From Gavia stellata (taxonomy: Eukaryota; Chordata; Aves; Gaviiformes; Gaviidae), in assembly GCF_030936135.1 (NCBI RefSeq), contig NC_082603.1, forward strand, positions 25,324,880 to 25,388,879: DNA of 64,000 bases, read 5' to 3'. Of the stretch, positions 26,001 through 43,451 are shown in pieces (within the stretch, counting starts at the first letter, position 1; the number at the start of each line of letters is the position of its first letter). A model generated the notes under the pieces. It worked only from the letters and a program-made list of their open reading frames with translations. It had not been told where the DNA came from and ran no database searches. Position numbers and translations under genes: made by a program.

Positions 26001-28578
26001 GCCTGGGGATGTAGGAGCTGTCCTGACCGTCCAGCATCAGCCACAGCTTCCTGGGGATGAGAAGAGCAATGGACAGCGTTGTCCTCCCCTCCTGAGCTGC
26101 CTGGGCATGGAGATGCCCTTGGACATGTTCCAGGGCTGAGGGCAAGGCTATGTCCTCCTGGGGTGCATCTGGGAGCAGCTGTCCCCCACCTCAACCCAGA
26201 GCCCCCAGCTGCAGCCCGGGGAAAGCTGCTTTCAAGAGGAAGATGGTGTTTTGCCCCACACCCTGCCTGTCCCTGGCACAGCTGCCAGTGAGGGGGGGCA
26301 CCCTGAGGTCTCACTTGACAATGGTGCCTTTCTTCATGTTAAGCCGCACCCAGTGCTGCCCTGGAGGCCCGTTGCTCTCCCAGAAGGTGTATGTCTGGTT
26401 GTCGGTCAGATGAGCCGCGCTGCAGTCCTCCTGCAAGAGTACAGCGAGTGGAGGGAGGGAGCTGAGCATCCTTGGTCACACCATGGCCACCCCTGGGCCA
26501 GAGGATGTCAGGGCCAGGCCAACCCCTCGGTTCGCTGGGCTGCAGGTGGATGGTGGTTCCCGCACAGAGCAAGCTGGGCATGGCCATGGACCCCTTACAG
26601 CACCCTAGAGACAAAATGGAGTTTTGCTCCAGATGCCCAACTCCTCGCAGCCTCGCTAGAGCAGCAAAACCTCACCACCATCCCCTGCCCCTCTCAGAGG
26701 GGACAGCCACTGCCAGCTGCTCCTCCCCGCAGCTGCGGTGATGCTCGTGTGTTTCACACCAATTTTAAGCCGTGGAGGAGCCCTGCGACGCACCGCCTGC
26801 GAGGAGACCTCGACACTGCTGAGGTGCTCCTTGGTGCAGTCCCTGCGCTGCAGCTCCCTCTCGCTGTGATTGTACAGGAAGCGCCCCAGCTCCATGTCGT
26901 GCTCGTAGCTCCAGCCCGGGGGCACGGACCTGCGGGGGGACTCCGTGTTAACAGGACAGGGAGACCAGGCTGCGCCCCAAACATGCCCACCAGCACTATT
27001 CAGGTGCCCCAGCTCAGACCGGCTGCAGCATCTCATGGTCACCGCATTGGGATGGTGCCAGGCAGCTGTCCCCGCTGCAGGCAGATGGCACAGCCGTATC
27101 TCACCACCACCACGACAGGTGTTTATGGCCACCCCACCCCAGTGGGAACAGCACCACACGGTCACTCTGATGCTCTGTGGAGCAAAGGCCATCTTCGCTT
27201 GAGCAGTGTCAAATGGCATCAACGTAAAAGGCATCTCATGGCACCCATCCTCCTCACTCCCAACCCTGAAGCCAGTCCTGACCCCACAGGCATATCCAGG
27301 TCCTGGCTGGCCACCCCTTGGGGTGCTGCAATACACTCTAGGAGATGCACTTGTACCGAAACTTCTGCACCGCAGCCTCATCTTGCTCTATGAATCTGGG
27401 CTTCTCTCCGAGGCGCACGGAGTACGTCAGGTCCACCACTTGTTCCCAGCTGAAGCAGCACCAGCAGAGAAGTCACACAAGGGAAAAGATGGGTCAGTAC
27501 TCAGCATGCCCAAGTGTTACTGCCTTAGCTGGGAGTGGGAGGCAGCAGAGGTGATGGCACCCAGGGGCTGCAGGAACCGCTGTGAGCAGGATGAGAGCAT
27601 CCCTGCAGCCGGGTGCAGGCTGGGACAGAGCAGGGGAATCCAGCCCTGCACATGGCCTTCTGTCATGAAAATAAACTATGAGCTCTCTCATCACTGCATT
27701 ACCTCTGTAACATCGCTCAGCCCAAACCCAAGTGCCTCAGAAACCCCCTGGCATGTTTTTTATCCTGTGCAGGTGCTGCCACAAGCAAACAGGATTAGCC
27801 TGGATTAGAGGGGGCACCCTCCTGCCTGCAGGTGGCTCCGCAGGGAAGTGTCCCACCTGCGCTGGAGGGAGTGAGGGGGGCTGTGCTGCACGTGCCCAGG
27901 GGATTTGGGATGGTTGAGTCGCATGTGCTCTGTGGGTACCAGCCACACGCGCCTCCAGCTCCCACAGCCCGGTCCCTGTCTGGGGTGCAGCAGGCTGGGA
28001 CCATACCTGACCGCGGGTTTATAATCAACCCCGAGTGTTTGGTGCTGCCACTGGATCTTCTCTACGGACTCAACCGGCACCAACTTATCTCCTCCTTCTC
28101 CAAACCTCTGCGCCAGGAGCCAGCCCTCAGCCAGCTCATGGCTGCTCGTGTACTCCTCCAGCTGCTCCTGAAAGCACATCCCGGCTTGTCACCACCGCCG
28201 GGACCCGACGGGCGGCTCCCAACTGCACGGCGGGGCACGTCCCGCCGTTACCTTGCTGAGCTTGACCCAGAGCCCGGCGCCGTTGCAGTACTCCTCGCCG
28301 GTGGCGCGGAGGCAGCCGCCCTTCCGCACCTCGATGGTGGCCCGCGCCGCCCGCTTGCCGCCCCGCGCCGGCCCCGGGCTGTCCCAGACGCTGAGCAGGC
28401 TGCGGGCGGCGGCGGCGGCGGCGGCGGCGGGGTCCTTGCAGATCTTGTACTGCACCTCCCGCGGCACGTAGCAGAGCGCGGCGGGCAGCGCCCGGGCGCG
28501 GCGGAAGCACTCGCTGCACTGCAGCAGGAACCGCAGCCGGCCCAGCACCTGGTGCGGCGCCTCCCCGCCCGCACGCAT
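20007..28578 (-). CDS. HECTD3-like E3 ubiquitin ligase, diverged tandem copy (copy A), complete
   Basis: Twenty-one coding exons splice to an open 846-codon frame: 28252-28578, 28007-28167, 27357-27449, 26794-26929, 26315-26430, 25937-26050, 24787-24869, 24371-24536, 23714-23795, 23253-23435, 23108-23157, 22923-22987, 22544-22647, 22151-22270, 21979-22068, 21680-21886, 21295-21424, 20758-20832, 20431-20512, 20269-20340, 20007-20091. All junctions are GT-AG. Exon lengths equal those of copy B except exon 1 (one alanine codon fewer) and exon 11 (one codon fewer). It has the HECTD3 plan: N-terminal region, DOC/APC10-like domain (about 205-383) and HECT domain (about 496-842). The catalytic cysteine is kept at C808 in [12 protein letters not shown], and the tail reads TDKNPWDE. 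The DOC exons diverge most from copy B (exon 4: 17 of 45 residues identical), whereas exon 1 is essentially identical. No stop or frameshift was found, so it looks functional. Substrates are unknown. It is a HECTD3 paralogue in its own right, so I give no symbol. Confidence 0.92.
21675..21823 (-). repeat. Second high-identity patch, exon 16 of HECTD3-A
   Basis: About 149 bases match 35007-35155 of copy B with roughly nine differences by eye (about 94%). They encode [20 protein letters not shown] and the end of the exon, plus the first donor bases. The 5' part of the same exon is much less alike. Strong constraint is an alternative to conversion. Confidence 0.7.
24870..25936 (-). other. HECTD3-A intron 6
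   Basis: This 1.07-kb intron is the longest in copy A; the matching intron in copy B is only 411 bp. It is purine-rich on the plus strand around 25500-25640. I see no exon or named repeat. Confidence 0.75.
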
Positions 28579-28594
28579 CGCGTACCGGGTACCG
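28243..28594 (-). repeat. Exon-1 homology tract, HECTD3-A copy
   Basis: These 352 bases match 43097-43451 at every base except for one GCG triplet in the polyalanine run. The tract starts 9 bases inside intron 1 and ends 16 bases upstream of the ATG. Immediately outside, the copies are unrelated, and the neighbouring exon 2 sequences are clearly diverged. Confidence 0.93.
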
Positions 28595-42100: not shown

Positions 42101-43435
42101 CAGGTTCATGTCCTGCTTGCCTTGGTCTTGCCCCGTTTTCTGCTTCGTACAAGCTTATCTAGGACAAGACTGTGCCAAGCAAGGCTGTTCCCCGCTGCTT
42201 GTCTTCCCCCCTCTCCCTCCTGGTCTGCAGGAGATGGCAGCCTGAGCAACCAAGGAGAGACAGTGGCTTGCACCCAGCCACAGCGGAAGCTGGGAAACAG
42301 CTCATACCGGAGCTTCTCTACTGCGGCCTCATCCTGCTCCATGGGCTTGGGCTTCGCTCCGAGGCGCAGGGAGTATGTCAGATCCACCACCTGCTCCCAT
42401 CTGAAACAACCCAGAGAAGTGGGGAGTGAGAAAATCCCAGCGGAAAGAAGGAGCTGGTGGTCGAGGAGTAGCTGGAAGGGGAAGATCTGGGTTTAAAGCC
42501 CCACGACACTCCATCCTCCACCACCTCCAGCCTCATCCGCCGCCCTTTCCTTTCCAACCATCTCGACTTCTTCCAGCCCACGCCCTGCCAGGCAGGTGAC
42601 AAGCACAGCGACTGAGCCAAACCCAGTTAACTCCACATCTGGCATCCCTATTGCCTCTCATCCATGGAAGAAGTGGCCAAGCGGGCTGGGGCTCCTCAGC
42701 CCAGGGCAGGAAGGGCTGAGGGGCAGCACACCGAAACCCCACGCAGTTGGGCCTGGGTGAGTGGGGGGCGAGAGCCCCCCTGCTCTCTGCCGTGCAAGGG
42801 GGACCAGGGAACCCAGGGACGGCGACCTAGAGGGAGAGAGCGGCGGCCCCGCACCTGATGACGGGTTTGTAGTCCACCCCGAAGAGCTGCTGCTGCCGCT
42901 GGATCCGCTCCGTGGACTCCACCGGCACCAGCCGGTCCCCGCCGTCGGCGTGCTTGCACACCAGCACCCAGCCCTCCTCCAGCTCGCAGCCGCTCCGGTA
43001 CTCCTCCAGCTGCTCCTGCGGGGCACAGGCGGCTCCCGTCAGGGACGGACAGGCCCCTCCGCGGGCAGCGCAGGCCGCGGCGGCCTCCCAGCCCCGCGCC
43101 GTTACCTTGCTGAGCTTGACCCAGAGCCCGGCGCCGTTGCAGTACTCCTCGCCGGTGGCGCGGAGGCAGCCGCCCTTCCGCACCTCGATGGTGGCCCGCG
43201 CCGCCCGCTTGCCGCCCCGCGCCGGCCCCGGGCTGTCCCAGACGCTGAGCAGGCTGCGGGCGGCGGCGGCGGCGGCGGCGGCGGCGGGGTCCTTGCAGAT
43301 CTTGTACTGCACCTCCCGCGGCACGTAGCAGAGCGCGGCGGGCAGCGCCCGGGCGCGGCGGAAGCACTCGCTGCACTGCAGCAGGAACCGCAGCCGGCCC
43401 AGCACCTGGTGCGGCGCCTCCCCGCCCGCACGCAT
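33108..43435 (-). CDS. HECTD3: HECTD3, HECT-type E3 ubiquitin ligase (copy B), complete
   Basis: Twenty-one coding exons give 848 codons plus stop: 43106-43435, 42855-43015, 42308-42400, 41898-42033, 41363-41478, 40966-41079, 40472-40554, 39928-40093, 39362-39443, 38251-38433, 37515-37567, 37133-37197, 36591-36694, 36139-36258, 35699-35788, 35012-35218, 34491-34620, 33972-34046, 33656-33737, 33462-33533, 33108-33192. The family transfers ubiquitin from E2 to substrates (reported for mammals: TRIOBP/Tara, MALT1, caspase-8, TRAF3). The DOC/APC10-like domain covers about 206-384, with [16 protein letters not shown] as in human. The HECT domain covers about 499-844, with catalytic C810 in [14 protein letters not shown]. 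The C terminus [11 protein letters not shown] is identical to human. The start is [13 protein letters not shown]; human (861 aa) has a longer, different N-terminal tip, which accounts for much of the length difference. It lies head to head with UROD. Confidence 0.96.
35310..35420 (+). mobile_element. CR1 LINE, 3'-end fragment
   Basis: GGTGCTTAGGGACATGGTTT at 35319-35338, then GTGGTGGACTT, TTAATGGTTGGACTTGATGA and GGTCTTTTCCAACCTACATG, match the avian CR1 3' end, which finishes here in degenerate ATTC(A/T)ATG-type repeats. It sits in the intron between exons 15 and 16 of HECTD3-B, antisense to the gene. It is 5'-truncated, as most CR1 copies are. Confidence 0.92.
37568..38250 (-). other. HECTD3-B intron 10
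   Basis: This 683-bp intron is moderately AT-rich and has no recognisable element. Confidence 0.7.
38434..39361 (-). other. HECTD3-B intron 9
   Basis: This 928-bp intron shows no coding segment or repeat I can name. Confidence 0.7.
41479..41897 (-). other. HECTD3-B intron 4
   Basis: This is a 419-bp intron with nothing recognisable. The other copy-B introns not listed are mostly a few hundred bases or less and equally featureless, apart from the CR1-bearing one between exons 15 and 16. Confidence 0.65.
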
Positions 43436-43451
43436 CGCGTACCGGGTACCG
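43097..43451 (-). repeat. Exon-1 homology tract, HECTD3-B copy
   Basis: This is the 355-base partner of 28243-28594. It encodes residues 1-110, including nine consecutive alanines (eight in copy A), and reaches just past the exon's donor site and start codon. Confidence 0.93.

Follow-up and report, generated by a model that had tools for sequence, protein, structure and literature searches.

How can the first exon of two neighbouring genes be identical to the base when the sequences on either side of it no longer resemble each other? The question is raised by a 64,000-nucleotide stretch of the genome of the bird Gavia stellata (NCBI RefSeq assembly GCF_030936135.1, contig NC_082603.1; C10:25324880-25388879 in the 1.32-Gb assembly of 1185 contigs), referred to below as the window, which carries two genes for the HECT-type E3 ubiquitin ligase HECTD3, copy A and copy B. 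Both are complete in the window and lie in tandem, head to tail, on the minus strand. We propose, with a probability of roughly 0.83, that exon 1 was recently homogenised between the two copies by interlocus gene conversion, probably in the latest of a series of such events. All coordinates are window positions.

An identical first exon in two HECTD3 genes

Both gene models were assembled by hand from conserved blocks. The genes and the tract shared by them are as follows.

20007..28578, minus strand: HECTD3 copy A, 21 coding exons, 846 amino acids, all introns GT-AG, open frame
33108..43435, minus strand: HECTD3 copy B, 21 coding exons, 848 amino acids, all introns GT-AG, open frame
28243..28594, minus strand: putatively homogenised tract of copy A, comprising 16 bp of 5' leader, all of exon 1, and 9 bp of intron 1
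28252-28578, minus strand: coding sequence of exon 1, copy A
28405..28428, minus strand: alanine run of copy A, 8 residues, GCC repeat
43097..43451, minus strand: putatively homogenised tract of copy B, same content, 352/352 apart from the GCC unit
43106-43435, minus strand: coding sequence of exon 1, copy B
43259..43285, minus strand: alanine run of copy B, 9 residues, GCC repeat, the single difference in the tract

Direct base comparison of 28243-28594 with 43097-43451 finds 352 of 352 aligned bases (162 + 190) identical, including all 327 aligned coding bases of exon 1, and the sole difference inside the tract is one additional 3-base GCC (alanine) unit in copy B. The match ends on both sides at once, the next flanking base being already mismatched, and its limits lie 16 bases ahead of the ATG and, at the other end, 9 bases inside intron 1 (GTAACGGCG). 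A preliminary description of this stretch had reported a perfect match of about 352 bp except for one alanine codon, with these same limits, and the comparison shows it to have been exact on both points. In the coding alignment, from which the intron is omitted, the longest identical run spans 345 columns (the 327 of exon 1 and the first 18 of exon 2); when the columns are permuted (n=1000), the longest run averages 27 and peaks at 51. The identity of exon 1 between the HECTD3 copies is confirmed as a real feature of the assembled sequence.

Divergence outside the tract

The sequences adjoining the tract are the following.

28007..28167, minus strand: exon 2 of copy A, 115/161 bases identical to copy B
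42855..43015, minus strand: exon 2 of copy B
28168..28242, minus strand: remainder of intron 1 of copy A, homology with copy B undetectable
43016..43096, minus strand: remainder of intron 1 of copy B, homology with copy A undetectable

Over exons 2-21 the copies differ by 0.725 substitutions per synonymous site (dS) and 0.225 per nonsynonymous site (dN), and share 66.8% of their amino acids. No exon other than exon 1 exceeds 87.5% identity, and exon 2 stands at 71.4%. We detected no homology between the copies in the rest of intron 1 (75-81 bases), where 80 of 300 shuffled sequences score as high, or in the upstream flank (106-109 bases), where 245 of 300 do. Exon 2 and the promoters are strongly different, as had been described, the upstream flanks being no more alike than shuffled sequence. 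Exon 2 begins with 18 bases (GAGCAGCTGGAGGAGTAC; 28150-28167 and 42998-43015) that both copies share despite the unrelated intron 1.

Flanks lacking detectable similarity are also what would surround an inserted block, and a recent re-acquisition by exon shuffling could have placed a fresh duplicate of exon 1 of copy B before exon 2 of copy A, replacing a different or decayed exon. Such an insert must, however, have landed exactly between a CpG-island promoter and a matching phase-0 acceptor, with margins of only 16 and 9 bases. The shared start of exon 2 argues moreover that the rest of copy A already fitted behind this exon 1. Elevated GC content, which is present here, served to separate conversion from shuffling in a study of the mammalian BEX/WEX/GASP genes (PMC1274310). 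We consider re-acquisition very improbable.

Silent sites and the question of constraint

A second explanation that needs no exchange is constraint at the nucleotide level, whether through selection on the protein, codon use in a GC-rich island, or a regulatory or RNA element. Some of its premises hold. The tract has a GC content of 0.77 and a CpG observed/expected ratio (o/e) of 1.05 and lies inside CpG islands, which are functional DNA; the GC content at third codon positions (GC3) of exon 1 is 0.99 in both copies, which lowers silent divergence, compared with 0.41-0.96 across the remaining exons of the two genes. A first exon within a CpG island is GC-rich in any case. The islands, identified by a sliding 200-bp test of GC and CpG o/e, are two.

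28011..29080, unstranded: CpG island over exon 1 of copy A
42751..43930, unstranded: CpG island over exon 1 of copy B, extending over the start of the divergent gene UROD

The silent sites nevertheless separate exon 1 from the rest of the gene. Exon 1 has 89.7 synonymous sites, none of which differs between the copies, against 240.6 differences at 517.8 such sites in exons 2-21. Codons that encode a conserved residue and have a synonymous choice are identical in 106 of 106 cases in exon 1 and in 321 of 473 elsewhere (Fisher p 2.6e-16). Because exon 1 is nearly saturated with GC, this test was repeated on only those codons whose third base is G or C in copies A and B alike, of which 105/105 are identical in exon 1 and 276/309 elsewhere (p 8e-5); likewise, four-fold sites occupied by C or G in each copy are identical at 68/68 positions as against 125/149 (p 9e-5). 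These restricted tests rule out GC-saturated codon use as the sole cause.

Comparison with the human protein, for which we used the HECTD3 sequence of a solved structure (PDB 9r85), bears on selection at the protein level. Copy B is 59% identical to human in exon 1 and 61% in exons 2 and 3, which makes these the three least-alike exons. At the 100 exon-1 sites aligned across the three proteins, copies A and B agree at 100% and copy B and human at 59%. Where copy B departs from human, copy A carries the residue of copy B at 41 of 41 positions in exon 1, compared with 57 of 111 in exons 2-21 (p 3.7e-10). With human as the sole outgroup, the paralogues within the species are closer to each other in exon 1 than copy B is to its orthologue, but the duplication itself appears younger than the split of birds and mammals, which limits the weight of this comparison.

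The exon-1 protein is thus among the fastest-changing parts between human and copy B, so strong long-term constraint is absent, and this low conservation together with the identity at silent sites rules out protein constraint as the cause. The earlier statement that silent identity is inexplicable by protein constraint is upheld. Taking protein, codon, and element-level selection together, we regard constraint without exchange as scarcely credible.

Assembly error as an alternative

The preliminary description named an error of gap filling or consensus as the main alternative. Under this explanation exon 1 of one copy would have been overwritten by reads of the other during consensus building, polishing, or gap filling. 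The GC content of the tract is that of DNA which sequencing tends to lose, and the length of the tract matches that of the shared exon exactly, so that mis-mapped reads would stop at the same limits. Against such an error, the contig spans 37.1 Mb, and neither the 64-kb window nor the 200 kb flanking it (264 kb in all) contains an N. DNA richer still in GC (0.81-0.86) directly upstream of copy A was assembled and finds its full match only at its own place, and exon 1 is matched at only two places in the genome. A plain paste would give GCC runs of equal length, and those runs differ. At ~74% identity, short reads of the other copy should fail to map, and a gap filler that used reads of copy B as a bridge should bring the flank of copy B along. 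Assembly error keeps its place as the leading rival, weakened by the long contig, the absence of Ns, the two loci, and the difference in GCC length, and we judge it improbable.

Two further candidates were rejected. A third donor copy was not found when the assembly was searched with exon 1, which matches two places only, nor was an extra contig carrying copy A when it was searched with the upstream DNA of that copy, which matches fully in the window alone; its four other matches, on contigs C11 and C27, are weak (72-75%). Among the best candidates scored with the copy B protein, no HECTD3 gene beyond the two was found in the 1.32-Gb assembly. Of 36 matches of the copy B protein to the genome, 33 lie in the HECTD3 locus (among the best 53 of 56 candidates scored); under the same limit, the remaining three, on contigs C13, C1, and C22, show 38-46% identity, fall entirely within the HECT domain, and are most likely other HECT genes.

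Gene conversion as the preferred explanation

Recent conversion of a GC-rich exon had been put forward as the simplest cause, and it is supported by the silent sites, the 41 of 41 shared residues, the identity of the non-coding margins, and the unrelated flanks. The process may have run as follows. Copies A and B stem from an old head-to-tail tandem duplication. A meiotic double-strand break, which we place in the CpG-island first exon of one copy, would then have been repaired on the other copy as template, with either copy a possible donor. The patch would have extended only while homology lasted, which sets its ends at 16 bp ahead of the start codon and 9 bp inside intron 1. The tract coincides with what homology remains near the start codon, as would be expected of a patch that runs only where the template matches. 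Each conversion would have reset the exon; between conversions, the unconstrained flanks would have lost similarity, so that the patch shrank to the exon, and one GCC unit would have slipped after the last homogenisation.

Repeated homogenisation since the duplication seems likelier than one event. Had exon 1 first become as unlike as exons 2-3, a conversion would encounter ~25% mismatch, which recombination tolerates badly, and a single conversion across sequences that are ~74% identical would be hard.

The timing can be expressed as a ratio free of rates, which is rough and presupposes clock-like change at one rate throughout the gene. The pair is old, as judged from its dS of 0.73, and at the full age of the duplication 65 synonymous substitutions would be expected in exon 1, where 0 are observed. 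The last homogenisation would then date to at most roughly 4.6% of the age of the duplication (95% upper bound, synonymous sites), or at most 2.2% with all 352 positions. In exons 2-21, copy A shares 57 states with copy B against human and 15 with human against copy B, from which the duplication appears to postdate the bird-mammal split, with the caveat that conversion would inflate the count of states shared by the copies.

Several points weigh against gene conversion. The identity of exon 1 rests on one assembly, with human as the sole outgroup. An island of 350 bp between unrelated flanks comes close to the shortest length on which recombination can act. Copies as unlike as exons 2-3 now are would convert poorly, which brings in repeated conversion as an extra assumption, and exon 16 gives no clear support for repeated conversion elsewhere in the gene. 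The mechanism also has against it that the two loci are no more than putative recombination hotspots.

Exon 16 (21680-21886 in copy A, 35012-35218 in copy B) is nearly identical between the copies in its second half, where they share residues that differ from human. Its identical run of 37 bases, the longest once exon 1 and the adjoining start of exon 2 are set aside, is reached in 4 of 1000 permutations. A second converted tract was considered here and not upheld: the run of identical codons at conserved residues is ordinary (488 of 2000 permutations). The likeness may reflect constraint or an old trace of conversion.

Recombination at CpG islands in birds

A search of the genome for the SSXRD domain, which we take to belong to PRDM9, returned one match that fell short of the cut-off (20.6 of 23 bits, E 0.78). 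PRDM9 is absent in all birds and crocodiles sampled in one survey (PMC5519329). The SSXRD result is consistent with this, but the search was made without a vertebrate positive control. In a flycatcher pedigree, crossover density peaks in promoters and CpG islands, with first exons next among the parts of genes; among crossover locations, the promoter excess and the association with CpG islands have statistical support, the place of first exons apparently not, and non-crossovers are GC-biased (PMC4878770). Raised recombination at CpG islands and transcription starts is likewise described in the blackcap (PMC10781513).

The two genes and their neighbourhood

Both proteins contain the Pfam domains HECT, at the C-terminus, and ANAPC10 (APC10/DOC). 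Set against human HECTD3, copy B aligns across residues 6-848 (1613 bits), with 84.9% identity in exons 2-21 (626/737 sites). It adjoins the divergent gene UROD, followed by a gene of the ZSWIM4-8 type; the human order, HECTD3-UROD-ZSWIM5, matches. On the basis of this identity and these neighbours, copy B is the HECTD3 orthologue. Copy A, in exons 2-21, is 61.1% identical to human HECTD3, less close than it is to copy B (66.8%). It keeps the cysteine of the HECT motif, and dN/dS between the copies in exons 2-21 is ~0.31 (0.225/0.725), so that copy A, the diverged paralogue, looks functional.

43764..47195, plus strand: UROD, divergent neighbour of copy B, with Pfam URO-D on two exon-bearing open reading frames and the start codon placed by eye

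The divergent promoter shared by copy B and UROD contains, at 43530-43689 on the plus strand, five units of the CAAGATGG type, most of them CAAGATGGCGGC, as counted by eye; in appearance they resemble repeated YY1-type sites. A minisatellite with units of 53 to 64 bases occupies 43881-44089, which by position falls in the first intron of UROD. A further CpG island at 18781-19830, ~180 bases past the stop codon of copy A, is probably the promoter of the next gene leftward. Elsewhere in the assembly, a search for the globin family gave three clustered matches on contig C18, two of them alpha-type, and four on C1, all beta-type, with types assigned by eye; birds have this arrangement, which together with the compact introns points to an avian genome.

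Comparison with known cases

Partial gene conversion between duplicates is already known, and the HECTD3 pair is a clean new case. The human fetal globin genes HBG1 and HBG2 are tandem genes identical in their 5' part and different in the rest, which is ascribed to conversion, as proposed here. Those genes are close throughout, whereas the HECTD3 pair is old and divergent outside exon 1.

In the mammalian BEX/WEX/GASP genes, conversion has led to concerted evolution of a 5' exon and left the remaining, coding part to diverge, producing chimaeric genes, and the homogenised parts have raised GC (PMC1274310), as here. Their shared exon, however, is 5' untranslated region and is carried by many members of a set of more than 20 X-linked genes (PMC1274310), in contrast to the coding first exon of a tandem pair of two genes found here. 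The mammalian pairs BMP8A/B, DDX19A/B, and TUBG1/2 are similarly old duplicates, less than 1 Mb apart, in which one part is homogenised by ongoing conversion and the rest has diverged (PMC2720389). In DDX19 and TUBG the converted part has an elevated GC3, which in rodent Bmp8 is not significant (PMC2720389). The screen that found them demanded two consecutive exons and their intron more than 97% alike (PMC2720389), and would have missed HECTD3, where a single exon is shared and the flanks are unrecognisable. Among the literature matches listed, we found no account of a HECTD3 duplicate and no title on conversion of first exons in birds.

Implications for duplicated genes in birds

The HECTD3 pair is unusually clean: one coding exon is homogenised between two genes whose other parts appear very old, and no further similarity can be recognised in the sequence immediately adjoining that exon. 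There is a practical warning in this: gene trees, orthology calls, and dating of HECTD3 will vary with the exon chosen, and screens that require a converted intron would overlook such a case. The pair also makes it testable whether promoter-centred recombination in birds drives exchange between duplicates, a link that is usually argued from genome averages. It is conceivable, though we think it rather doubtful, that HECTD3 is one example of a general rule, by which, in genomes without PRDM9, such as those of birds, stable recombination hotspots at CpG-island promoters act as standing sites of conversion, so that both members of a tandem duplicate retain the same first exon over very long periods while the rest of each gene diverges. 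If this is true, such duplicates would evolve as chimaeras, with a shared N-terminus and C-terminal parts free to diverge.

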